Below, in pieces: positions 1 through 20,132 of a stretch of DNA of 27,558 nt; the first letter of the stretch is position 1, and the number at the start of each line of letters is the position of its first letter. Origin of the DNA: a virus; IMG/VR virus record IMGVR_UViG_3300032893_002691, positions 1 to 27,558 of that record; one strand, written 5' to 3'. The translations under genes and the position numbers were made by a program. A model generated the notes under the pieces. The model saw only the letters and a program-made list of their open reading frames with translations. It was not told where the DNA came from and searched no databases.

Positions 1-3000
1 TGGCGTTGTAGAACTCTTCAAGCGCCGGTCCCGCGTGATACCAGAAGAATCCCTGGCGGTAGTAGTTGCTGAGCGCCCTGCCGCTGTTCGTGTCTCGCGC
101 GAGGTCCACGAAGTCACTCACGCGCATGTGCCGGCTGATGAAGTCCACGTTCTTGGGCGTATTGTTCCCGTACAGCTCCCGCATCATTTCCTGCGCGCCG
201 TTCTCGGAGGTTGCGTACTTGTTGACCCACGCCGGGTCACCCGCAAGCTTCTTCTGCAAGCGCGGCATCCAGGAGACCTCGAAGTTCGGGCTGGTAAGGC
301 CAAGGTTAGCGTACACTCCCGTCGTCGGCGTACGACCCAGGAAGTCCCGCATCGCTTCGGCTTTGCGCACAAACGCCTTGGCTGCGGCGGAAGACGTATC
401 CTGCCCGAAGAGGTCCTTGAGGATGCGGGTCTTCACGTCCTCCCGGTTCGCTTCCATGTACTCCATGAACCTTGCCGATTCATTGTCGCTCATCTGCCCA
501 AGGATCTTCGCCGTCGCGTTTTGCGTGAGCATATCCTGGTGCTCGAACTGCTTCACGTTGGTACGCAGATCCGCGAATGCCTTGTTCACATGCGGCATCT
601 TGTAGCGGTCCGCGAGGCTCTTGATCCTGCTGGGAGCTGGCTGCAGGTAGTTTGCCACCACTTCCTTGGCGTAGGTGAGCCAGCGCGACACGGGATTCAG
701 GATCGGCGACGTGGGGATGGCCAAGTTCTTCGGCGCCATGGCGCTGTCCATCGCAGGCTCATCGTACGGCCCAAGCAGGTTAGGCGCCCACTCCGCGTCA
801 GGTACGGTGGCGAGGACCTTGCGGACTTCCTCGCGCGTGGCGACGACGTGCCTGCCCTCGGGGCCGCTGATCACATAGTTACCGTCCTCACGGTACAGCG
901 CAAACCCTTTATCCTCCGCGTCGATGATCAGGTTATGGATGTCGTATACCTCTCCACGCAGGAACTTGAACGCCGCGCGCGCGCTCTTGTACGTGCGGTG
1001 AATGCCCAACTCCTTCATGTCCACGATGTACTGCGAGGACACCTTGCTTCGCGAAACGGTGCCCTCTTTCTGCCGAAGGACAACCTGCTGCACATCATGC
1101 GCACTCATATCGGCGAACTTGGCCGCGAAGGCATACGCCTTCTGCAGGCTTGCCGACACCGCCCCCGCCTGGTAGTTGAAGTCCACACCGTTGTCCGTCA
1201 CTTCGATGCTGTCAGGACCAAACTTGCCGTCGATCTTGTCCGGGCGCAGGCCGAGCGTTTTCATGAGCGCTACATGATCATCAAAGCGCTGTCCGCCGAG
1301 GACCTTTCCGTTTCGGTCTTCGACCCACACCTGGCCCTTGGCTTGCTTCAGGTCGTAGCCCTTGAGCGCCAAGTCATGCCGCAGCGCGGGCACCGTGACG
1401 TTTTGCACCAAGAACTCGTCGATGACCTGCGGCAGGGTGCCGATGAACGCATCCTTGTTCGGCATGGAAAGCTGGAACGTGCCGTCGGCCAAGCCGCCTC
1501 CGCTCACGGGTGTCAGGCCCGTACCCGGTACCTTCCGCGTAGCGTCCAACAGCCAGGAAAGCTGCATCTTGGGGTCCGCCCCCGGAGTCGGAGCCTTGAA
1601 GACGTTTTGCGCAACCGCCCCCGCGGACGGGTTCTCCGCCCCCGGCGGCCGCTTCACCATCATCTCACCCTTGATGGCGCGCTTCATACGGTCGAGCAAT
1701 ACGCTCTTCATCTGCGGAGAAAGTTCAGGCATGGGACCGCGGGCCACGATGCGTCCCGTATTCGGGTCACGCACCGGGAAGCCCGTTGCAGCCCGCTTTT
1801 CCATACCGGCAAACTGCCTGCCTGCTTCCTGCCCCGCATGGTATTCCTTCGCAGCCTCGTTAAGCGCGTTGTTGTAGTTCTTCAGGAACGCCTGCTGCTC
1901 AAGCACTCCGTTCACGTTTCGCGGTACGGCCACCGTCGTGGTCCCGGCGTTGTAGCGTATGCTCACCGATAGGTCACCCGGTTCCCGTTCCACACGAGCC
2001 ACGCGCACACGGTCTGTAGGGATGTTGAGCTCCGCGAAGCTGGTCTTCGTGAGCAATTCGATATCCCCTGCCTGCAGCTCACCGAGGGTTTTCTGCGCGA
2101 GGAACTGCTCCATGACCTTGGGCTCAAGGATGCCCGGGAACTGCTGCTTGACCATCTGGCTGATGCGAACGTCGCCCGCAAGCTTGTTGACCGCGCGCAC
2201 ATCCACGCCCTCTTCGTTGACGGAGCCCTTGCGCGTGAAGGACGGAAAGTAATACCTGCCCGTCTTCGGGTCCATGAAGTCAGACACATGCTTGGCCTGC
2301 TCTCGCGGATAGAGCAGGGTCACGGAGCCGTCCGCATGCTCGACGGCATCGGCGCCGCTTTGCAGCGCGTACGTGTGCGCAAGGTCAAGTGGATCTACAG
2401 GCGAGCCGAGCTTCTGCTTGACGACGGCTGCGGCCTGCTGGAGACGCACAAACTGCTGCTCAGGTATAGGGTGGCTGTAGACGCCGACGGCATTCACGTC
2501 CGACTGCGCTCCCGGCTTCACGCGAAGCGGATTGTCCGTGTCCAGGAACACTCCGCGCCTGCCAATGGTCCGCAACTGCTCGGGGTCAACGGCCTGCGTG
2601 AAGGCCACCGTCTTCACCCCCGGGGTGCCTTCAAGCATTTGGTGTTCACCCGCAGAGATCGCCGCACGTGAGTACATGGGTGTCACACTCTCATCGCCAG
2701 CGTCCAGTGTCTTCTGCAAGCCCTTGAGGTTCTCGTGCACGACGGCGATGTCACTGCTCTGCGCGCCGGGCCTGTTCGCGAACTCATCCAGGCCCTTCTT
2801 GTCGAAGAGGGCCGAGGCCAGGGAGCGTTTCGCTTCACCCAGGGCCTTGTACGCGGCGGTGTACGCCGGCGATGCCTCGGCGGACCTCGGAGGTTCCTGA
2901 AGCGGCAGCACATTCCGCTGCGGAGACAACCTGTCCACCAGGTCCTTCTTCGCCGCAACGTTCTTCACCTCTTGGGCGACGCGGGCGTCGGCCGAATCCA

Positions 3001-4390
3001 TGGCGACGCCGTAGCGCCTCGCGCCTTCCTTGAGGGCCTCGGTAAGGGTGACCTTGTCCAAGGGCCTCGGCTGTGCACCCCGCTGCGGATTCTGCACGGT
3101 GGCAATCTGGCCGCCGGCATCGGGTACCTCGCGCATGCGGAACGTTCCGTCACCGTTTGCCACCATGTTCACATCCAGGCCGCGGTTTCCAAGCGGTCCG
3201 ACCTTGAGCTGCGCCTGAAGGCGAGCAACTGGATCTACTTGCAACGCCTGCGGACCAAGCTTCTGCTTCGCCTGCTCAATGTTCTCCCGCGCAAGCACCG
3301 CGTCCTTGACACCATCCGGCGCTGCCACGAAGTCCGGGTCCGTGGACTTCAACTGCCGCGTGGCATACATCTCTTCCGCGCGCGTGGTGGCATCCTGTTT
3401 GAGGAGGCGTGGATACCGTCCGCTCACGGTCTCGGCCATGGCCCTTGCGCGTGTCACCGCCCGCGTGATCTGTGCGCCGCCCTCGAAGGCGCCGATTGCC
3501 GCACCTCCCACTCCCCAACCCAGCGCCACACCCGTGATGCCCTGCGCATCGCTCACGGAAGCGGGGTCTACGAGGGCCGCCCGCGCAAGGCCGAAGCCTG
3601 CGCTGCTTGCAAAGTCCGCGGCTACCTTGGCACCAACCGTCGCCAGTGCCGGGGCCATGCCCTTGGCGCCAGCTGCCGCCAGCGCTCCTCCGATGCCCTT
3701 CTCCGCCACCGCCCCGAGCTTTCCGAGGTTCGCCGCACCTCCCGTGGCAAGCGACGGCCCCGCGATGTCCGCCGTGGTCCCGATGAAGTCGCCGAGGGCC
3801 GCCATGAGATCCGGCGATCCTGCCAGGTTCACGAGCGGAACGTACTTTAGCAACGTGTTATTCACCACGTTGCGCACCCCCTCGGGCAACGCCACCCCTT
3901 GCTTGGCGCCAAGGTACTCGGCGAGCTTGCTGGCATCCGGGTCTCCCTGCAGCACCTTCGTCTGCAGGTTGTCCAGCGGCTTGATCCACGGCGCAGGGAT
4001 CTTGCTGTTGGCCACGGTAAGCCAGTTGGTGGCCTTCCCGGTGATCGACTTGCTGTACGCTACCGCTTCGCGGAGCGCGGCGGAGGCCGCGGGGTCGTTT
4101 TCCAAACGCTTTTGCTCATCAAGGAAGGACTTGTCGCGGTACGCCGGCGGAGCGGAGGCCACGGTGCTCATGAGCTTTCCCTGGGTGTCGGCGTCCAGCG
4201 CCTGGAACTCCGGGAACTTGGAAAGCACAAGCTGCCGAACTGCTACCTGATCCCCGTAGCCCAGCGCGAGAAACTTAGGGTTATCGTTGAGCGAGGCAAG
4301 TTTCTGACCCATGGTCGGAGGCGCTGCCGGCGCAGTATCTGCCCGTGCGGCCTGCTGGCCCAGGGAAGAGACTTCATCTACGTCAGGCAT
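1..4390 (-). CDS. Giant internal virion / ejection-type protein, 3' end outside window
   Basis: This frame stays open from an ATG at 4390 to the window edge, giving at least 1,463 codons with no stop; the C-terminus is missing. GAGGCGATC lies just before the ATG. The N-terminal ~150 residues are helical and charged. A long Gly/Ala-rich, weakly hydrophobic stretch follows at about residues 170-260, then long mixed helical regions with no motif I can name. I see no lysozyme, transglycosylase or polymerase signature in the visible part. It is the last of four proteins after the nozzle-like gene, the place where short-tailed phages encode internal virion proteins that leave the head and form a channel in the host envelope (T7 gp14-16, P22 gp7/16/20). 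That role is inferred from position, size and the Gly/Ala stretch. A giant polyvalent protein with enzymatic domains further downstream remains possible. Confidence 0.75.
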   Translation of the reverse strand, partial: MPDVDEVSSLGQQAARADTAPAAPPTMGQKLASLNDNPKFLALGYGDQVAVRQLVLSKFPEFQALDADTQGKLMSTVASAPPAYRDKSFLDEQKRLENDPAASAALREAVAYSKSITGKATNWLTVANSKIPAPWIKPLDNLQTKVLQGDPDASKLAEYLGAKQGVALPEGVRNVVNNTLLKYVPLVNLAGSPDLMAALGDFIGTTADIAGPSLATGGAANLGKLGAVAEKGIGGALAAAGAKGMAPALATVGAKVAADFASSAGFGLARAALVDPASVSDAQGITGVALGWGVGGAAIGAFEGGAQITRAVTRARAMAETVSGRYPRLLKQDATTRAEEMYATRQLKSTDPDFVAAPDGVKDAVLARENIEQAKQKLGPQALQVDPVARLQAQLKVGPLGNRGLDVNMVANGDGTFRMREVPDAGGQIATVQNPQRGAQPRPLDKVTLTEALKEGARRYGVAMDSADARVAQEVKNVAAKKDLVDRLSPQRNVLPLQEPPRSAEASPAYTAAYKALGEAKRSLASALFDKKGLDEFANRPGAQSSDIAVVHENLKGLQKTLDAGDESVTPMYSRAAISAGEHQMLEGTPGVKTVAFTQAVDPEQLRTIGRRGVFLDTDNPLRVKPGAQSDVNAVGVYSHPIPEQQFVRLQQAAAVVKQKLGSPVDPLDLAHTYALQSGADAVEHADGSVTLLYPREQAKHVSDFMDPKTGRYYFPSFTRKGSVNEEGVDVRAVNKLAGDVRISQMVKQQFPGILEPKVMEQFLAQKTLGELQAGDIELLTKTSFAELNIPTDRVRVARVEREPGDLSVSIRYNAGTTTVAVPRNVNGVLEQQAFLKNYNNALNEAAKEYHAGQEAGRQFAGMEKRAATGFPVRDPNTGRIVARGPMPELSPQMKSVLLDRMKRAIKGEMMVKRPPGAENPSAGAVAQNVFKAPTPGADPKMQLSWLLDATRKVPGTGLTPVSGGGLADGTFQLSMPNKDAFIGTLPQVIDEFLVQNVTVPALRHDLALKGYDLKQAKGQVWVEDRNGKVLGGQRFDDHVALMKTLGLRPDKIDGKFGPDSIEVTDNGVDFNYQAGAVSASLQKAYAFAAKFADMSAHDVQQVVLRQKEGTVSRSKVSSQYIVDMKELGIHRTYKSARAAFKFLRGEVYDIHNLIIDAEDKGFALYREDGNYVISGPEGRHVVATREEVRKVLATVPDAEWAPNLLGPYDEPAMDSAMAPKNLAIPTSPILNPVSRWLTYAKEVVANYLQPAPSRIKSLADRYKMPHVNKAFADLRTNVKQFEHQDMLTQNATAKILGQMSDNESARFMEYMEANREDVKTRILKDLFGQDTSSAAAKAFVRKAEAMRDFLGRTPTTGVYANLGLTSPNFEVSWMPRLQKKLAGDPAWVNKYATSENGAQEMMRELYGNNTPKNVDFISRHMRVSDFVDLARDTNSGRALSNYYRQGFFWYHAGPALEEFYNA

Positions 4391-10249: not shown

Positions 10250-10570
10250 TTAGTTCCCTGCTGCTTTCCACGCTGCTTTCCACGCCTGGATGAACGATGC
10301 CCCGAAGGCCGTCGCATTCGCCGGCACCGCCACGAGGTTATTGATCGCTTGAAGGGTCATCTGGGCAAGCGTCTGTTGGGCAACCACCGCAGGGTCCGGG
10401 GTCTGTGCCGCGGGGGGAACATAAGGACTTGCGCTTCCTCCTTGAGACAGCCACGCGCTGACCTCTGCCATGAGCGGATCACTTGCAAGGACATTGTACG
10501 GAAGCCCATTGTACACCACCACGTACGATCCGTCAGGCAGCAAGAGAACCGGCTTCGTGAAGTCGATCAT
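10250..10570 (-). CDS. Hypothetical protein after tail-fibre gene, possible fibre accessory
   Basis: This 106-residue protein starts at the ATG at 10570, sharing ATGA with the stop of the tail-fibre-like gene, with GGAGGATCGC upstream. The N-terminal ~35 residues look like a beta-hairpin (LLLPDGSYVVVYNGLPYNVL). A Pro-rich linker (YVPPAAQTPDP) and a helical C-terminus ending FIQAWKAAWKAAGN follow. I do not recognise the family. The 4-base overlap with a fibre gene suggests a fibre chaperone or a co-assembled fibre subunit, but that is context only. Confidence 0.75.
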   Translation of the reverse strand: MIDFTKPVLLLPDGSYVVVYNGLPYNVLASDPLMAEVSAWLSQGGSASPYVPPAAQTPDPAVVAQQTLAQMTLQAINNLVAVPANATAFGASFIQAWKAAWKAAGN

Positions 10571-11163
10571 GCGATCCTCCAGACGACCGCTTGGGGGGCG
10601 TACCCTGCCACTGCTGCATATATCTGTGTTCCGCCAGCAGCGACTCCCGCAAAGAAAGTTCCCTGAAGGTTATTACTCGAACTCTGGTTTCCCAGAACCA
10701 GATATGCCCATGTACCACCCGCCGGGAGACTAAGGGCTGCCCCTGTGCCGGCAGATATAGGCTCCCAATAGCCCACTCCCGATGACCCTTGCGGAAGTGG
10801 GGCGACCTTTCCATACTGCGGCTGGTAGGAAAGCGAGTTGTACGCGGTACTCCCGTCCCCGATCTTGAAGTACTTTGTGTCGGTCTCGTAGCCGATCTGG
10901 CCGGAGAGCAGCACCGGGTTCGCCGAGGCCAGGGCCGCGGCGGTCCCGCTGATGGCATTCGTGAGGCCGGTGCCGGTGCCGGTGAACGTTCCCGCCTGCG
11001 TCCACGGGCTGTTGAGGGTGAGTACCGGCGCCGCTGCACTCTCGGGGTCAAAGGAAAAAGCCTCGAAGGGAAACAAACCCTGGGAGGTGTCACGGGTAAG
11101 GATGCTTGCGGGGCGTATGGGAGCAGGAGGCGAGGAGCCGCCACCACCTTGTATGTCACTCAT
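10567..11163 (-). CDS. Tail-fibre-like adhesin with Mtd-N-like motif
   Basis: The product has 198 residues; the ATG at 11163 shares ATGA with the upstream stop, and no clear Shine-Dalgarno is seen, so it probably depends on translational coupling. A 33-codon extension upstream lies over the neighbour and was rejected. Residues 1-20 are Gly/Pro-rich. At about 87-111 lies QIGYETDTKYFKIGDG followed by AYNSL, the pattern of the N-terminal domain found in phage receptor-binding proteins such as the Bordetella phage major tropism determinant (G-x-I-G-x-x-x-D-T-x-x-x-K-I-G-D-G). The C-terminal ~80 residues are beta-rich with a jelly-roll-like or C1q-like look (AYLVLG, GTFFAG, VVWRIA). It probably forms part of the host-binding fibre. 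Confidence 0.78.
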   Translation of the reverse strand: MSDIQGGGGSSPPAPIRPASILTRDTSQGLFPFEAFSFDPESAAAPVLTLNSPWTQAGTFTGTGTGLTNAISGTAAALASANPVLLSGQIGYETDTKYFKIGDGSTAYNSLSYQPQYGKVAPLPQGSSGVGYWEPISAGTGAALSLPAGGTWAYLVLGNQSSSNNLQGTFFAGVAAGGTQIYAAVAGYAPQAVVWRIA

Positions 11164-11897
11164 GGCGTGTACCAGATGGTGATGAAGCCACGGTTGTAGC
11201 TCGTCGCATCCCAGTCCGTGGAAGCAAGCCCGGCTCCAAGCATGTTTACATACGTAAGCCAATCCCCCGCGGTGTTTTGTGCAAGCACTACATTGGTCGC
11301 GGTAAGCCCCACGCCCAGCCCCCAGTGTGTCGCCGGGTTCGTGTAACCCCTTCCCATGGGGGCGCGGTAGTTGTCACCGTCGGACCGCAACACCGCATCC
11401 ACACCGATGATCTTGGAAAGCGTGAGGCCATGCGCGACGGACACACTCGCCGACGAGCCCATGTTCCAGTCGCCGATGTTGATGACTTTGCAGAACATGG
11501 TCGTGGACGCACCACCGAGGCTACGAACCGCCTCCGCCGCCACGCTCACCCACGTAGAGTTGCTTGTGCGTACCTTCAGCGGCGTCGTGTTGCTCTGGCA
11601 GTAGAGCCGCCCCACGTCATCGGAGTCCAGCGCGTTTCCGTCGGGCTTGGTGGTAGGCGCCGAGGACTGGTGGTAGACGCGGCCCGCGCCCTGGCGGAGG
11701 TTTCCTTCCTGGCCGGCAGAGGAGCCGCCCACCAACGCGAAATACCCTTCACGGCTAAGCCGCTCCGCGAGCGCAACCTTGAGTTCACGTATGCGGTCAT
11801 CGCCTTGGCGGGGGTCGGCCGAGCCCGCCGGGCTTGCGTTGAAACCCGTCGCGGAACTTGTTCCTCCACTCCAGGTCACCGTGGGTGTAAAGGCCAT
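11160..11897 (-). CDS. Tail-fibre / head-fibre-like structural protein
   Basis: The protein has 245 residues. The ATG at 11897 overlaps the adaptor stop as TAATG, with GGAGGTGCTGTA upstream. Residues ~28-45 contain DPRQGDDRIRELKVALAER, a motif frequent near the N-terminus of phage fibre proteins, where a short helix precedes a trimeric shaft. The middle carries short beta segments (GRLYCQSNTTPLKV, STWVSVAAEAV). The C-terminal domain (about 130-245) is beta-rich and ends in GFITIWYTP, like the terminal strand of a fibre head domain. It is encoded together with the following fibre-like gene, so the two may form one adhesin. Receptor specificity is unknown. Confidence 0.78.
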   Translation of the reverse strand: MAFTPTVTWSGGTSSATGFNASPAGSADPRQGDDRIRELKVALAERLSREGYFALVGGSSAGQEGNLRQGAGRVYHQSSAPTTKPDGNALDSDDVGRLYCQSNTTPLKVRTSNSTWVSVAAEAVRSLGGASTTMFCKVINIGDWNMGSSASVSVAHGLTLSKIIGVDAVLRSDGDNYRAPMGRGYTNPATHWGLGVGLTATNVVLAQNTAGDWLTYVNMLGAGLASTDWDATSYNRGFITIWYTP

Positions 11898-12814
11898 TAC
11901 AGCACCTCCAAGTGAGAGTCCTCGCGCTCGTAGGTGAGTTCGATATCTTGCTTGAGCGAGGACATAAGCTCATCCAGGTCACGCTTCGCCGCGTAGGCTC
12001 CACCGAACTCCTGGTTACGCACCAGCCCGATCCACCTTGCGTAATGCCAGATGGCTTCGTGAAACTGCTCGGGGATCAGGGGCACGTCGGTGGCCGCTGA
12101 GAGGTCATCCGGCATTACCGCGGCCTCGATTCGGTAGGTGCGCACCGTGCTCACCGGCATGTCGAAGTAGATCGCATTTCCCCGCGGGAAGTAGCTCATG
12201 GGTATGCTGGCCGTGAGCAGGTACATGGAGAAGTTCTCGTCCCGCGCGGACGGCCTCAGGTCCCACGGCATCTGTAGGTCGGTGACCTTTTGCACGGCAC
12301 GGATCTTCTTGACGGGAGAGAGCACAATGTTCTCCGCGGCCGTCGCATCCGTGCTCTCGACGAACTTGTAGAACCTCTTGTAGAGCTTGTAGTCGCTCGT
12401 GGCATCCGGCGTCGTGGTCCAGTTCTGGTGCACGGTGATGGTCCCGCTCGTGGCCACCGAGTCTATGATCAGCCGCTTCTGGCCGCTTCCAGTCCCCGCG
12501 GAGATCTCCACCACCCAGTCCACGTAGCGGTCGTCGGGCGTCGCCCCGACAAGGCCGCTGAGGACCGCAGTGTTCGCCGTCGCCGACGTCACATCCCCGG
12601 TGAGCACCACCGTGCTCAGGAAGAGCACCTGCTCGAGGACCGGAAAGCGGATCTGCTCTCCGCTTGGAAAGCGCCAGGCGCAAATGCGCTTGTACGCGCG
12701 GTTGATCCAGGCGCGGAGCTTAAGCTCCTGCGCGGAGCCGTAGGTACGGTAGTCGATGTCATCCAGGTCGCCAAGGGCTTCGTAGACATTCTGTTCCAGG
12801 TCGGTGAGCGTCAT
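11897..12814 (-). CDS. Head-to-tail adaptor protein candidate
   Basis: The product has 305 residues. The ATG at 12814 (MTLTDLEQNV) has GGAG seven bases upstream; a longer frame to 12997 overlies the repeat-protein gene and was dropped. The N-terminus (~1-45) is helical with RAWINRAYKRIC, followed by a beta-barrel-like middle with EISAGTGSGQKRLI and FYKFVES, and a helical C-terminus (~245-305) with EQFHEAIWHYARW and AKRDLDELMSSLKQDIE. Helix, beta domain, then C-terminal helical hairpin is the layout of phage connector adaptors (SU10-type, P22 gp4-type), which bind below the portal. The exact family was not tested. It sits unusually far from the portal, behind the spike and small virion genes. 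Confidence 0.7.
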   Translation of the reverse strand: MTLTDLEQNVYEALGDLDDIDYRTYGSAQELKLRAWINRAYKRICAWRFPSGEQIRFPVLEQVLFLSTVVLTGDVTSATANTAVLSGLVGATPDDRYVDWVVEISAGTGSGQKRLIIDSVATSGTITVHQNWTTTPDATSDYKLYKRFYKFVESTDATAAENIVLSPVKKIRAVQKVTDLQMPWDLRPSARDENFSMYLLTASIPMSYFPRGNAIYFDMPVSTVRTYRIEAAVMPDDLSAATDVPLIPEQFHEAIWHYARWIGLVRNQEFGGAYAAKRDLDELMSSLKQDIELTYEREDSHLEVL

Positions 12815-12815
12815 G

Positions 12816-13361
12816 TCACGGCTCCAATCTGAGGTGGATCTTCCACCAGTTCGCCTGGGATGCAGGAGGCTCGGGGCTGGTGATCGTAGGGTGGTCAAGA
12901 AGCGGCCCCACCGCGAACCCCGCGCCTGCCAGCACATGAAGCTGCTTGAGGACAGCATGGTCCGTCGCCGGCGTCGTTGCAAGCCCACTGGCGGCAAGGG
13001 AGTAGTTTACCGTCTGCGTCACCGTGGGCGTACCGAGCATAGGCGTGGTAGCCACTCCCACGCACACCAAGGCCTGGATCTGAGTGAGCACGATGTGCGC
13101 AAGCACGGGCGTCGCCGCAAGCGCACTGCAACCTATGGCGTGATTCTGGGACAGCGTACCATGCCCCAGCGCGGGCGACGCCAGCAGCACGTTTCCCGCA
13201 AGCGCGTGGTTCTGGCTTACGGCACCGTGGTCCAGCGCCGGCGTCGTGCTCATCCCGTTCGCGGTAAACGAATAGTTTGTGCCGTCGCCCGCCGTGGGGT
13301 CGCGGAGCACAACGTTGTTCGGTGTCGCCGACCCCTGGCGAAGGTAGATGAGCAGGCTCAT
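12816..13361 (-). CDS. Repeat-containing virion protein
   Basis: The product has 181 residues and starts at the ATG at 13361, which shares ATGA with the upstream stop. About residues 30-163 consist of six degenerate repeats, with a conserved T/S-P near the middle: prolines at 41, 63, 85, 107, 131 and 153, i.e. steps of 22, 22, 22, 24 and 22. A consensus reads roughly HALAGxxLATTPxLxHxxLxQ. Similar short repeats occur in virion-associated proteins of many phages and prophages. The last ~18 residues (NWWKIHLRLEP) look like a separate C-terminal strand. Such repeats probably fold as a beta-rich array. The role is unknown; a fibre or decoration component is likely from context. Confidence 0.78.
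   Translation of the reverse strand: MSLLIYLRQGSATPNNVVLRDPTAGDGTNYSFTANGMSTTPALDHGAVSQNHALAGNVLLASPALGHGTLSQNHAIGCSALAATPVLAHIVLTQIQALVCVGVATTPMLGTPTVTQTVNYSLAASGLATTPATDHAVLKQLHVLAGAGFAVGPLLDHPTITSPEPPASQANWWKIHLRLEP
12873..13274 (-). repeat. Six ~22-codon tandem degenerate repeats
   Basis: In-frame repeats of about 66 bp inside the 181-residue protein gene. Each copy has a hydrophobic A-G-x-x-L start, a T/S-T/S-P centre and an x-x-L-x-Q-N/x-H end. They are recognisable at protein level; DNA copies have diverged, with partial matches such as repeated forms of CTGGGACAGC/CTGGCTTACG around 13147-13220. Confidence 0.7.
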
Positions 13362-13702
13362 GCCGGCACCAGCGTGTTCACCGTGGTCCCGGCCTTGTCT
13401 GGGGAGCCTGGCAGGTAGGCGACGCAGTAAAACGGACCGGCGTTGGGTCCGATCAGAAAGGTAAAGTTTCCGCTGACGTCGGAGGTGGTGAGCGCGGCAA
13501 GGACGTCGTTACTGGTATAGAACAGGTGCACTACGCAGCTTCCCAGCGCCGATCCCGTTCCGTCTACCGTCTGACCTGAGAGAGCCCACATGTGTGTATC
13601 AAACATGAGCGGGGAGCGGCGCGTTCCCTTGAGGTCGAGCTTCGCCATCCCATGGACCATGAGCGGCGAACGACCTCTGGGAAACTGCGCCTGGCTTGGC
13701 AT
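13358..13702 (-). CDS. Small virion protein with carboxypeptidase-regulatory-like beta-sandwich
   Basis: This 114-residue product starts at the ATG at 13702, overlapping the upstream stop as TGATG, with GGAGG ten bases upstream. The N-terminal ~35 residues are basic (FPRGRSPL, GTRRSPLM). Residues ~40-105 read as a compact beta-sandwich: SGQTVDGTGS, VVHLFYTSND, TSDVSGNFTF, YCVAYLPGSPDKAG. The S-D-x-x-G-x-F and x-Y-x-V-A-Y pattern is typical of carboxypeptidase-regulatory-like/Ig-like domains found on phage tails and capsids. It is probably a decoration or tail-associated protein. The family assignment is by pattern only. Confidence 0.75.
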   Translation of the reverse strand: MPSQAQFPRGRSPLMVHGMAKLDLKGTRRSPLMFDTHMWALSGQTVDGTGSALGSCVVHLFYTSNDVLAALTTSDVSGNFTFLIGPNAGPFYCVAYLPGSPDKAGTTVNTLVPA

Positions 13703-15747: not shown

Positions 15748-18111
15748 CTACCTCCTACACAGCACTACACTCATGTTGCTCATCACCGTTGCTTTCATCT
15801 GCCGTACTACCATGGCCCCCGCTCCCAGGGGCATGGGCCAAAACGTATTCAGTCCCACTCTGGTTCCCAGCGTCGTCAAGGGAATCACATCCACATACGC
15901 AAGCACTGTACCAGAATAGTACGCCGCCTGCAACTGAATGTTTCCCACCACCCCCGTGCTCTTCCTCACGATGATTCCCGCAAGGCAGAGGACATCAAGG
16001 ACTGGCGGATATACACCCCCGGATATCGAAAGGGTAGCGAAGTTTGGTAATACGGCAACATCCTCGTACGCTCCCATGTCGGGATTGGCGAAGGAGGCAA
16101 CCAGACCTACATTTCCATTCCTTCCAAAGTTACCCTTTCGAACGGGCGGGCAAAGGCCAAGGGCGGGACTTGAAGCCGCCCCCGCTCTGATTGCCGGAGA
16201 TCCTTTCTGGAGGGTGAAATCTCCAGAAGCAGGACTTGTAAAGAGAGGATTGCTACTGATCGAGTGTGCATCCAACCCACTTCCACTTTGCCATGCAGAA
16301 AGCGTAGTATCCTTAGATTGCCCGTACCGTTGCCATTGCGGACTGGCAACCGAATAGAAAGTGTTGTTATCGGACGCGGCAATCTGCGCTGCAGCTACGT
16401 GAAAGTCAATGAATATCTGATCAGCACCAGCGGGTCCGTCAACGGCACCGAGAGAATAGAAAATGTTGTTTTTCAACTCCGAGATGCAGGGCGTAACCGC
16501 ATCGTGATAGTTCGTCATGTAGATCATGGACTGGAAGTAGCCATAAAATACATTATTCCAAATCCTTGTATTTATAACATGCAGATCGCCCACATTATCG
16601 TCTCCAAGAGTTATCCCAATGTAGGCTTTCAGTCCAGGATCATAGGTGGGGTGATAGAAAATGTTTCCGTAGATTTGCTGACCATCGCAAACATCATTAT
16701 TAATTGCCGCCCACCTAACCTGCTCAAACCAGTTGTAGCGGATGATGCACCCGGTGAATCTCTGGCTGGTGCCGTTCATTTGGACACCATTGGCTGATGG
16801 GGTGCCCTGCCCTATCATGTCAAAGATGTTGTACTCAACCACGTTGTTGTTGGATGCAAGGCCGCCGGCCCCCTGGAAGAAGTAGATACCGTGGTCATTC
16901 TGGGTGTCGTGGAAGTAGTTGTGAGCTACGGTCCAACCGCTTCCGCAACCTCCAAGAAGTGCAGCACCAGTAGAGCCAGCAGCTATGGTGTGCAATTCGC
17001 AGTTCAGTACCTGACAATAGTTGCAAGTGTCAAAGTTGAGAAGATGAACATCGTTAAGGCCATTATACAATTCAAGATTGCTGAAGATGACGTAGTTCGC
17101 ATAGCTTAGGTAAATTGCCTTTCTCGCGGCTTCACCATTGAGGACCGTAGCCCCATCACCCTTTATCGTGATGGGTGAACCGGATACACCACCCCGTAGA
17201 ACTTTGAGTACTTCGGTGGTTGTGCTTTTGAATTGACCACCGGCACTCAAGAGAACGAGCGTATCCCCGGGACCGATTGTGGTATCTGCCTGTCCCCTTG
17301 CTCCTGCCCAAGTGGCGGCGGCCTGAAGATTGCTGATCCCCCACGCATGAGCGGCAGTCCCATCCTTTGGTGCGCTACCGTCTCCACCAATCGCGGCATA
17401 GTAGGTTTCGTAGACCGGAGTCAATGACCCGTCGAGTCCATATGCTATGATGTCGTTGATTTCTGTCTCTGACAAAATCCTACTGAAGATTGCAACCTCG
17501 TCCACATTTCCGTTCATGTAATACGTGCTCAGGTCGCGGCCTATGTAGAAAGGTTGCGCCGGAAGTTTCAGCGTCCCCGTGAAAGCAACACCATTCTTAC
17601 AGATCCCATCTATGTACATGTAGATCATCAATCCTGCGGAATCAAAGATGCCACAAATGTGATGCCAAGAACCGTCAAACGGAACATGATAAATAGCCGT
17701 TGCGTCATATTCCGTATCCGACGAGTTCCAGACCGAGAACTCTAAACTCCCATTTGTCCCGACGTCGATTCCCCAGGATCGAAAGGTAGAGGAACCCGTC
17801 ATTCCCATAATGCCAGCGTCACCGGCCGGAGTGCTAGGAAAGCGTACCCATGCCATAGCCGTAAATGATCCGGCTGCAACGCCTGGGAAATTAGCCGTCA
17901 AGTTTGCGTAGGCGCATTGAAGCCTTTGAGAGCTCGCACGAGTAAAAGAAGCACTCTGCGCCCCTCGCTTGTAGTTGGTTGAATCCTCGGTCGGATATGA
18001 GCCGGCATCGTCATCAACATGATTGGTACCCGTTCCGCTCTGGTCAAAGGCGAGGTGCTCAAACATGTAGTAGGCGACCATGTTCGGATCAAGCGTATAG
18101 TTGGCTGACAT
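15748..18111 (-). CDS. Tailspike / adhesin: LamG-like domain, right-handed beta-helix, duplicated C-terminal domain
   Basis: The protein has 787 residues. Residues ~1-235 form a LamG/concanavalin-like domain (AMAWVRFPST, GSWHHICGIFDSAG, YIGRDLST, GNVDEVAIFSRILSETEI). Residues ~240-690 look like a right-handed beta-helix with N/D-turn ladders (VIFSNLELYNG, VEYNIFDMIG, IYGNIFYHP) and the closing SNPLF...GDFTLQKGSPA typical of polysaccharide-acting beta-helix proteins. Residues 710-787 match the neighbouring 122-residue protein. Beta-helix spikes bind or cleave capsular polysaccharide or LPS; catalytic residues cannot be assigned here. The gene is less GC-rich than its neighbours, suggesting exchange. 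The ATG at 18111 directly follows a TAG stop, with only a weak GGTGG upstream. Its location in the head region could mean a head-attached spike. Confidence 0.85.
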   Translation of the reverse strand: MSANYTLDPNMVAYYMFEHLAFDQSGTGTNHVDDDAGSYPTEDSTNYKRGAQSASFTRASSQRLQCAYANLTANFPGVAAGSFTAMAWVRFPSTPAGDAGIMGMTGSSTFRSWGIDVGTNGSLEFSVWNSSDTEYDATAIYHVPFDGSWHHICGIFDSAGLMIYMYIDGICKNGVAFTGTLKLPAQPFYIGRDLSTYYMNGNVDEVAIFSRILSETEINDIIAYGLDGSLTPVYETYYAAIGGDGSAPKDGTAAHAWGISNLQAAATWAGARGQADTTIGPGDTLVLLSAGGQFKSTTTEVLKVLRGGVSGSPITIKGDGATVLNGEAARKAIYLSYANYVIFSNLELYNGLNDVHLLNFDTCNYCQVLNCELHTIAAGSTGAALLGGCGSGWTVAHNYFHDTQNDHGIYFFQGAGGLASNNNVVEYNIFDMIGQGTPSANGVQMNGTSQRFTGCIIRYNWFEQVRWAAINNDVCDGQQIYGNIFYHPTYDPGLKAYIGITLGDDNVGDLHVINTRIWNNVFYGYFQSMIYMTNYHDAVTPCISELKNNIFYSLGAVDGPAGADQIFIDFHVAAAQIAASDNNTFYSVASPQWQRYGQSKDTTLSAWQSGSGLDAHSISSNPLFTSPASGDFTLQKGSPAIRAGAASSPALGLCPPVRKGNFGRNGNVGLVASFANPDMGAYEDVAVLPNFATLSISGGVYPPVLDVLCLAGIIVRKSTGVVGNIQLQAAYYSGTVLAYVDVIPLTTLGTRVGLNTFWPMPLGAGAMVVRQMKATVMSNMSVVLCRR
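15751..15984 (-). repeat. 78-codon duplication shared with 18195-18428
   Basis: The last 78 codons of the spike align without gaps to the last 78 codons of the neighbouring small protein (18195-18428). A hand count gives 49 identical residues of 78. Shared stretches include GIIVRKSTGV, LAYVD, RQ-x-KAT and SNMS. DNA is also similar, e.g. both carry CACCCCCGTGCTCTT and ACGATGATTCC on the plus strand. Confidence 0.9.
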
Positions 18112-18189
18112 CTACTGCCACCCTCTCAGCGCCCACTTGCACCAGTGGCGCCTCTGCTTCTTGTTCAGGACGTCCACCCGTGCAGACAT
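18112..18189 (-). CDS. Possible 25-codon micro-gene between small capsid-associated gene and spike
   Basis: An ATG at 18189 lies two bases after the stop of the upstream gene, with an AGGA motif partly overlapping. The frame of 25 codons ends in TAG immediately before the spike ATG (TAGATG). The peptide is basic and Trp-rich: MSARVDVLNKKQRRHWCKWA then LRGWQ. Perfect stop/start abutment on both sides, and a weak Shine-Dalgarno for the spike itself, suggest it is either a real small protein or a translated leader that couples spike translation to upstream ribosomes. Short length makes chance possible. Confidence 0.4.
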   Translation of the reverse strand: MSARVDVLNKKQRRHWCKWALRGWQ

Positions 18190-18191
18190 TC

Positions 18192-18560
18192 CTATCTCTT
18201 CAGCAGCACAATGCTCATGTTGCTGAGGAGTGTCGCCTTGATCTGCCGGGGGCTCATGAACCCTGCGCCCTCAGGGAAGTGCCAGAGGTCAATGCCGCCC
18301 GTGGCCGTTGCCAGCGTGGTAGACGGAATGAAGTCCACATAGGCAAGCGTGGTCCCGGACAGATACCCCGCCTGGATACGAATCTTCCCAATCACCCCCG
18401 TGCTCTTTCGCACGATGATTCCGCCGAGGTTAAGGCCCGCGTAGTCCGTCGGGGCCACGCCAAGACCGCCCACGCCCCCCTGCAGCTTGGCCGTCGCGGG
18501 AAACACATCGTTGGTCGCCGTGAGTGCCACGTAGTTCGTTGTAGAACCAGTAACGGCCAT
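18192..18560 (-). CDS. Small virion protein, paralogous to spike C-terminus
   Basis: This 122-residue protein has an excellent AAAGGAGGCC ribosome site before the ATG at 18560. Residues 1-44 are Thr/Gly-rich beta (NYVALTATND, AKLQGGVGGLG). Residues 45-122 match the spike C-terminal domain without gaps. The fold looks beta-sandwich-like with conserved GIIVRKSTG and SNMSIVLLKR. Being encoded three genes after the capsid gene, it may decorate the head or form an attachment point; the shared domain suggests common binding or trimerisation. No enzymatic motif is seen. Confidence 0.8.
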   Translation of the reverse strand: MAVTGSTTNYVALTATNDVFPATAKLQGGVGGLGVAPTDYAGLNLGGIIVRKSTGVIGKIRIQAGYLSGTTLAYVDFIPSTTLATATGGIDLWHFPEGAGFMSPRQIKATLLSNMSIVLLKR

Positions 18561-18572
18561 GCTTGGCCTCCT

Positions 18573-18845
18573 TTAGAAGTCTTCCTGGCGCGTAGAGTTG
18601 CTCATGGAACCTTTCCACACGGTGTCACGCTCGCGCCGCTGCAGCTGGTAGATGTCCGTATGGCATCCGCACGGCACTCCAAACACCCTGCCCTTGTAGA
18701 ACTTCACCTGGTCGCGGCGGTATTCCATGTGGCACTGACTGCAGACAAAGTACCGCTGCTGGTAGATGCCCGGCTTGGTGCCATGGCTTCCCACCGGGTA
18801 CGTGGTGCCGCCGTAGACGTAGGTGCTCTGGACATAGCCTGGCAT
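18573..18845 (-). CDS. Small zinc-ribbon-like protein
   Basis: The product has 90 residues. C35-S-Q-C38 and C59-G-C61-H62 form a four-ligand zinc site (CxxC ... CxC/H) in a Tyr-rich short protein. Zinc ribbons of this kind are often encoded beside capsid genes of tailed phages and may act in assembly or DNA binding. The N-terminus (YVQSTYVYGGTTYP) is beta-like; the C-terminus is basic. The ATG at 18845 has no Shine-Dalgarno in the preceding 30 bases; the only AGGAG lies beyond a hairpin (described separately). Function is unproven. Confidence 0.75.
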   Translation of the reverse strand: MPGYVQSTYVYGGTTYPVGSHGTKPGIYQQRYFVCSQCHMEYRRDQVKFYKGRVFGVPCGCHTDIYQLQRRERDTVWKGSMSNSTRQEDF

Positions 18846-18883: not shown

Positions 18884-19216
18884 CTATGCGTCCGGCTGGT
18901 CCCAGCTCACGATGAACAGGCAGTTGGTGAACGAGGAAGTGTGGGTAACCTTTCCGTTACCCAAGGTGCACGACCCGGTGTAGTCCACCTGCGTGGTGCT
19001 TGCCCCCGTCCACACGATGCCGCTGCTCGTTCCCTTCTTCGCCCACCGCATGAACTGCAGCAGGATCGAGTTAGTGTTGATCCCCACCACGGTGGTGCTC
19101 TTATTTCCCGCCTTCACCACCTGAATCTGATGCGAGTGCCCACTGGAGAAGTGAGCACCCCGCACCTGGCCGCCGTAGGAGGCAGCGGCCTTGAGAACTT
19201 TTCCGCTCGCTGCCAT
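18884..19216 (-). CDS. Small beta-rich protein after major capsid gene
   Basis: This 110-residue product has an ideal AGGAGGTAAGCC before the ATG at 19216 and starts 10 nt after the capsid gene. The sequence is beta-rich (HSHQIQVVKAGN, TTVVGINTNSILLQFM, GIVWTGASTTQVDYTG, CLFIVSWDQPDA). It may be a head decoration protein or capsid cement; the family was not recognised. No zinc, membrane or catalytic signature is apparent. Confidence 0.75.
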   Translation of the reverse strand: MAASGKVLKAAASYGGQVRGAHFSSGHSHQIQVVKAGNKSTTVVGINTNSILLQFMRWAKKGTSSGIVWTGASTTQVDYTGSCTLGNGKVTHTSSFTNCLFIVSWDQPDA

Positions 19217-19226
19217 GGCTTACCTC

Positions 19227-20132
19227 CTATGCTCCCTGGTTTCCGAACACGCCCACCCAGTCGAAGAAGTCGCAGGTGAGCCGCCCGGTGATCTTGAACA
19301 GCGCGTTTCCGGTGTTGAAGTCATCGGAGCTTTCCACCGCGACCTGCTTCCTCCAGATGAAGCGGAGATCATGCGTTTCCCCGATCAGGAACCATGCCGT
19401 CGTGGACGTCAGGTAGTGGCACACCATGTACTGCAGGTCCTCGCCCTGCAGCGGGTTGACGTCGTTGTCGGTGACCTGCGTGCGCAGTTCGCTGAGCAGG
19501 AGCCGCTTGGCCATCCACTTCAGCTGCCACGGGATGACGAGCAGTTTCGGCTTCACCTTGATCGGGATGCCACGCTCGTTGGTCAGCGCCTCGAAGGTGT
19601 TGATCGCTGCCGTGAGTGCCGTCTCCGAGAGCGCCGCGGCCGTCGTGGTGTTGATCCCGTTCGTGCCGTAGTCGATGCGGGGATGCGCCGTGGAGAACAG
19701 GGCAACGGCGTCCAGGCCGACACGGGTCGTCGTTACGAATCCCGAGTTCAGCAAGTCCCAGAACTTCACTTCCTTGGTGTACGCTGCGCTCTTCGCCAGC
19801 TGCACCGGAATCTGCTTGATGATGTCCTGGCGGTCGTCGTCGTAGAGCACCTGCGTGACCTGCACACCCAGGCCGATGGGCGTGAAGTACACCGTCTTCT
19901 CCAGGCCCTGCTTGTAGATGTTCCAGTCCACCGCCTGCCCTTCAGGCATATCCGCCATCGCACCGAAGGTCGCGATCTGGCCTTCACGGAGGTAGTTTCC
20001 GTCGGCGGTGCCGAAGTTCGCCACCTTGTCATGCTCGCTGTCCTGGCGCTCGTAATGGTCAAAGAACACGTGCGTGAAGTCCCTGATGATCGCCTGACTC
20101 AGGGCACCCGATACACCAATTCCACCTGCCAT
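19227..20132 (-). CDS. Major capsid protein, HK97 fold (Mu gpT-like type)
   Basis: The protein has 301 residues, with AAGGAGGCACAAG before the ATG at 20132. The N-terminal arm is helical (SQAIIRDFTHVFFDHYERQ). The body shows features of HK97-fold capsid proteins: VALFSTAHP followed by a Asn/Thr-rich loop, ALSETALTAAINTFEAL (spine-type helix), GIPIKVKPKLLVIPWQLKWMAKRLL and NPLQGEDLQYMV, then WFLIGETHDLRFIWRK and GRLTCDFFDWVGVFG at the C-terminus. This layout is shared with Mu gpT-type capsid proteins. It is encoded behind scaffold and a decoration-like protein, as expected. No protease domain is fused and no maturation protease is seen nearby. Confidence 0.9.
   Translation of the reverse strand: MAGGIGVSGALSQAIIRDFTHVFFDHYERQDSEHDKVANFGTADGNYLREGQIATFGAMADMPEGQAVDWNIYKQGLEKTVYFTPIGLGVQVTQVLYDDDRQDIIKQIPVQLAKSAAYTKEVKFWDLLNSGFVTTTRVGLDAVALFSTAHPRIDYGTNGINTTTAAALSETALTAAINTFEALTNERGIPIKVKPKLLVIPWQLKWMAKRLLLSELRTQVTDNDVNPLQGEDLQYMVCHYLTSTTAWFLIGETHDLRFIWRKQVAVESSDDFNTGNALFKITGRLTCDFFDWVGVFGNQGA

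Follow-up and report, generated by a model that had tools for sequence, protein, structure and literature searches.

A phage spike that ends in the domain of a neighbouring small protein: a possible C-terminal virion-docking module

The window analysed here is the whole of an IMG/VR virus record (IMGVR_UViG_3300032893_002691; 27,558 bases), for which no annotated kin were found. It encodes on the minus strand, like all the genes located below by window positions, a 787-residue spike (positions 15748–18111), delineated from its open frame, a Laminin_G_3 match and relatives of its modules in two other viral contigs (L065 and L066), and a small protein of 122 residues (18192–18560), the open frame of which is transcribed directly upstream of the spike. 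Both genes sit between the gene for the major capsid protein (19227–20132; PHROG major head matches, 70% identical to that of relative L015), which forms the upstream border of this slot, and that for an SU10-type adaptor (11897–12997; PF24175, 35.1 bits with a cut-off of 27), which is conserved in relatives and forms the downstream border of the variable region. The capsid gene is followed directly by a 110-residue gene (18884–19216), a probable relative of the ∼100-residue gene found there in relatives (weak pairwise similarity to the L015 and L048 genes), and then by a gene for a 90-residue Cys-rich, zinc-ribbon-like protein (18573–18845), which its matches in relatives show to be conserved beside the slot. 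Searches of Pfam, PHROG and NCBIfam with the 122-residue protein gave no matches, and among solved structures neither the spike nor the domain that it shares with the small protein had a sequence match. The position of the small gene makes it plausible that its product is a virion protein.

The last 78 residues of the spike and of the small protein align without a gap with 49 identities (cores at 15751–15984 and 18195–18428), exactly the hand count given in a preliminary description of this DNA. A BLASTP comparison widens the match to 53 of 89 residues (97.8 bits, E = 4 × 10−29), corresponding to residues 699–787 of the spike (15751–16017) and residues 34–122 of the small protein (18195–18461). 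The similarity that had been visible in the DNA is equally real: 157 of 237 positions are identical (66%; blastn E = 2 × 10−18), with 59, 60 and 38 matches, each out of 79, at the three codon positions, and the identical codon is used at 29 of the 50 sites where the meaning is the same (stop included). A repeat finder reported no direct repeat larger than this pair anywhere in the window (15863–15985 and 18307–18429, 74%), and a profile built from the two copies found no third copy in the whole record. The longest exact run between the copies is 15 bp, and the Nei–Gojobori method gives a dN of 0.33, a dS of 1.06 and a dN/dS of ∼0.31. The modest DNA identity, the short longest match and this dN/dS ratio indicate that the duplication is old and that both copies have been kept under purifying selection. 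Survival of the pair by chance, as a neutral relic of duplication and fusion without a common function, would agree with the finding that a free and a fused copy occur together in one genome only in the window among the sampled relatives; the dN/dS ratio maintained over an old divergence and the intact frame make this extremely unlikely.

The preliminary description had also proposed that the shared ends are a recombination site by which spikes could be swapped as cassettes, and the arrangement has the look of such arms, in that two successive genes share direct repeats at their 3′ ends and the intervening body is foreign in composition. However, given the 66% DNA identity, the 15 bp longest run and the dS of ∼1.06, homologous recombination between the present-day copies is improbable; long near-identical ends are absent, no relative with the same ends was found and, as the repeats are direct, recombination between them would excise the spike. 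We therefore consider repeats serving as swapping arms to be very unlikely. Related spikes with unrelated bodies but the same last 78 residues, which had been suggested as a check, were not found by motif scans of 2.9 million viral contigs or ∼85,000 bacterial and archaeal genomes, scans of a kind that reaches only fairly close relatives. No extra copies of the domain were found in annotated phages or plasmids, and when the genomes were scanned a second time, with the capsid pair, no relatives came up. The idea of exchangeable bodies is supported in another form, since the same body does occur elsewhere, as two separate proteins that lack the last 78 residues.

The first of these modules, spike residues 1–232 (17416–18111), is a lectin that is complete from residue 1. 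Residues 73–219 match Laminin_G_3 (PF13385) with 86.5 bits against a gathering score of 27.6, and a scan of viral contigs with the whole spike identified L065, a contig otherwise unrelated to the window, in which residues 1–236 of a free-standing 254-residue lectin (L065:6811–7575) align with residues 1–232 of the spike (phmmer E = 4 × 10−42, BLASTP 39% identity). The second module, residues 233–689 (16045–17415), is assigned as a right-handed β-helix from its homologues in L065 and L066. Residues 415–689 match an adjacent but separate 627-residue β-helix protein (L065:4927–6810; BLASTP E = 3.6 × 10−8) that stops at the equivalent of spike residue 689; a second relative, of 608 residues, in L066 carries the same terminal motif, NPDMGAYE, and its gene has a Cys-rich and an adaptor-like gene as neighbours. 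Pfam Beta_helix matches these homologues but not the spike itself, which has a weak match with tail spike PHROG 7458 (E = 1 × 10−4). The module ends in a motif (residues 632–683) resembling NF041518 (`choice-of-anchor Q'), which scores 13.8 bits in the spike, below the curated cut-off of 25, and among the homologues exceeds it in L066 (35) and L056 (31) and falls just under it in L065 (24.3). The name of this model reflects its usual location ahead of varied C-terminal anchors. All of the module homologues in L065 and L066 are without the 78-residue domain. Shortly after its lectin gene, L065 also encodes an 809-residue repeat protein similar in style to a 181-residue protein of the window (12816–13361) that is built of degenerate ∼26-residue repeats (LSQNHA...ATPVL).

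In composition the spike body stands apart, as had been noted before, and its codon usage is foreign: its GC3 is 0.53–0.55, with 0.68 in the 78-residue domain of the spike (Fisher p = 0.02 for domain versus body), 0.77 in the small gene and 0.65–0.86 across the 30 remaining gene models that were examined. Standard tailspikes (T7gp17-like and others) carry an N-terminal adapter (PMC12692247). The spike resembles these in its lectin/β-helix body of a polysaccharide-directed type but differs in lacking an adapter and in lying beside the capsid gene instead of in the tail block. No N-terminal anchor family of PHROG, Pfam or NCBIfam was recognized in it, no particle-binding domain precedes the body as it would in an N-terminally anchored tailspike, and since residue 1 of the spike already aligns with residue 1 of the lectin the usual anchor has no place left at the N-terminus. 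Because lectin and β-helix are complete elsewhere without it and no N-terminal anchor was recognized, the shared domain is an add-on to finished adhesin modules, and the spike reads as a lectin, a β-helix and a local end domain.

Relatives of the window were collected through alignments of the large terminase subunit (TerL) and the capsid protein, single-sequence scans with either protein having found none. The conserved gene order is TerL, portal, scaffold, one or more further genes, capsid, ∼100-residue gene, Cys-rich gene, variable slot and adaptor. About ten relatives encode in the slot region a protein of 80–100 residues belonging to one detectable family (L045, L047, L050, L052, L054, L017, L048 and the C-terminus of an L030 protein), with L017 carrying two free copies in tandem. 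Adhesin-like genes also occur in and around the slot: a polysaccharide-lyase-like gene in L015 (sub-threshold in Pfam), a LamG gene in L030 and β-helices in L056 and L066. Laminin_G_3 is present in just two of 23 related records. The nearest relative (L015/L045, capsid protein 70% identical) has neither the 122-residue protein nor the spike, and vir526, the closest annotated record, holds only the Cys-rich protein in its slot. Unrelated C-terminal domains in related phages had been named beforehand as something that would speak against a shared anchor, and this applies in part, in that the nearest relative is without both proteins and has other genes in their place. The Cys-rich protein (CxxC...CxC) is found in the capsid–adaptor interval of most relatives (L015, L017, L018, L021, L028, L030, L046, L048, L053, L054, L057, L066 and vir526); we know of no function for it. 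In L025, two tandem gene duplications flank the capsid gene, with products of 149 and 147 residues before it (10774–11679) and of 134 and 132 residues after it (12608–13421).

An independent parallel to the spike is a 324-residue protein of L030 (IMG/VR contig 3300035192_000045), in which Laminin_G_3 at residues 12–155 (E = 2.8 × 10−11) is followed by a slot domain at residues 233–324. As in the window, a lectin precedes a slot domain at the C-terminus, and the gene of this related virus occupies the corresponding slot; unlike in the window, there is no β-helix, no free copy of the domain was found in the record and the domain shows no detectable sequence homology to that of the window. The tandem pair of L017 and the L030 fusion show that slot domains in this group of viruses are both duplicated and fused to lectins. 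The 122-residue protein lies where the slot family does, between the capsid and Cys-rich genes and the adaptor. However, homology between the window domain and this family was not detected by profile searches, by hhalign, whose score did not stand out from those of shuffled sequences (130 of 300), or by shuffle-controlled alignment (glocal z < 2). An N-terminal likeness, NYVALTATNDVFP versus NFATLSISGGVYP, was dropped because it did not exceed chance (664 of 5000 shuffles). The link between the window and its relatives therefore rests on position, size class and common architecture and not on sequence, which is the main weakness of this analysis.

An AlphaFold2 model of the window protein from a two-row alignment was unusable (pLDDT 37). 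A confident model of the L047 slot protein is a seven-stranded β-sandwich (pLDDT 89) that most resembles nucleoplasmin cores and, to a lesser extent, CBM6, CBM32 and discoidin folds (VIA Z 5–7.5, which may reflect merely a common arrangement), and a Foldseek search with a relative's slot domain gave no match below an E of 0.001 in the PDB or BFVD. These resemblances, together with a spike that otherwise consists of a lectin and a β-helix, could indicate that the shared domain is itself a carbohydrate-binding (CBM- or discoidin-like) module, free in the small protein and placed at the distal end of the spike. The tailspike LKA1gp49 likewise has a β-helix followed by a C-terminal domain, a discoidin-like β-sandwich (PMC5701251), although there it belongs to the catalytic domain. 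The fold result, however, was obtained for the family of the relatives and not for the domain in the window, and intermediate Z scores are common. A glycan-binding end would moreover leave the spike without any anchor, and a free soluble lectin expressed from the capsid slot would need another route onto the particle. A glycan-binding end domain is the chief rival to docking, but we regard it as rather unlikely. For LKA1gp49 we know of no small paralogue.

C-terminal trimerization and chaperone domains are common in tailspikes, and the shared domain occupies the extreme C-terminus of the spike. The domain could accordingly trimerize or fold the spike, with the small protein as a free helper paralogue, another of the possibilities raised in the preliminary description. 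In this case the small gene would be expected downstream, as is typical of fibre chaperones, whereas it lies in the structural slot with a strong ribosome-binding site (AAGGAGG). In addition, the homologous adhesin modules of L065 do without the domain and L030 fuses a different slot domain at the same place, so that a role in trimerization or folding is improbable.

The reading that we prefer, to which we give an even chance, is that the shared domain is a C-terminal virion-docking module, that the small protein is an accessory component of the particle and that the spike is mounted on the same kind of site with its lectin outward. The shared attachment point of the preliminary description is thus the best supported of its three ideas, through the complete start of the lectin, the stop of the β-helix, the sharing with a slot gene and the L030 fusion, and the shared anchor is favoured but unproven. 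We infer the binding of the domain to the particle, the location of its site and the use of this site by both proteins, and we assign docking from gene position and from the presence of the domain in the small slot protein. In such a scheme the domain of 78–99 residues would dock onto the virion and the 122-residue gene would encode a small accessory protein, most likely of a decoration type and located at the capsid or close to it. The ancestral version of this gene would have been duplicated and one copy joined behind an imported lectin and β-helix adhesin, and the resulting spike would be held by its C-terminus at a site of the kind that the small protein occupies on its own, its lectin end facing outward. 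This suggests that the virus built its spike by fusing ready-made binding modules onto its own small particle protein. The ribosome-binding site of the spike is weaker than that of the small gene, a difference that would agree with bare copies being numerous and spikes less so. The spike ATG directly follows the TAG stop of a 25-codon frame (MSARVDVLNKKQRRHWCKWALRGWQ; 18110–18187), which is in frame with it and could be a coupled leader or subject to occasional readthrough. Docking is further favoured by the purifying selection on both copies, by the foreign GC3 of the body with an intermediate value in the domain, by the conserved gene order around the slot and by a separate candidate for a conventional tail fibre in the tail region (10567–11262), with an Mtd_N-type domain at residues 106–139 and many tail-fibre PHROG matches.

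Two known systems offer partial precedents. In Hoc and Hoc-like capsid fibres of T4, accessory proteins located outside the tail, variable N-terminal adhesive domains precede one conserved C-terminal mounting domain (PMC10385173). The spike shares this layout, with a lectin and β-helix of foreign composition as its variable adhesive part, a likeness of layout only, with no sequence relation claimed; it differs in the nature of these modules and in that the end domain also stands alone as a separate neighbouring gene. The second is SU10 gp10, numbered between capsid protein gp9 and adaptor gp11, which is predicted to be a β-sandwich like the epsilon15 minor capsid protein and the base of the phi29 head fibre and for which no density was seen in SU10 virions (PMC9509320). 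Like gp10, the 122-residue protein is small and encoded between capsid and adaptor genes, the window adaptor matching SU10_adaptor; this likeness is positional, no sequence relation having been found.

More broadly, a small standalone virion protein could be a universal plug in uncultured short-tailed phages, with adhesins of any origin being mounted through fusion to a C-terminal plug, bare and spike-bearing plugs occupying the same sites on one particle and L030 and the window representing independent cases with diverged plugs; we put this forward tentatively, as a possibility that is more doubtful than not. Tailspike engineering and annotation generally presume an N-terminal anchor. If the docking interpretation is correct, some phages mount large adhesins C-terminally through a domain that they encode on its own as a small protein as well, providing a natural example of the grafting of an adhesin onto a particle and a sequence-only rule for recognizing spikes in the capsid region, namely an end domain that equals a neighbouring small gene. 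It would also offer a functional hypothesis for the unnamed small genes that many environmental phages carry in their capsid–adaptor interval.

Two further features of these genomes were observed. In the window, a 1463-residue open frame that reaches the window end (2–4390) has no PHROG match and is possibly an internal or ejection protein of the virion. In the region from capsid or adaptor to tail of several relatives (L046:13660–15003 and 16465–17481, L021:9034–11333 and L048:2969–5213), genes resembling those for radical-SAM enzymes, glycosyltransferases and methyltransferases were recognized by eye.
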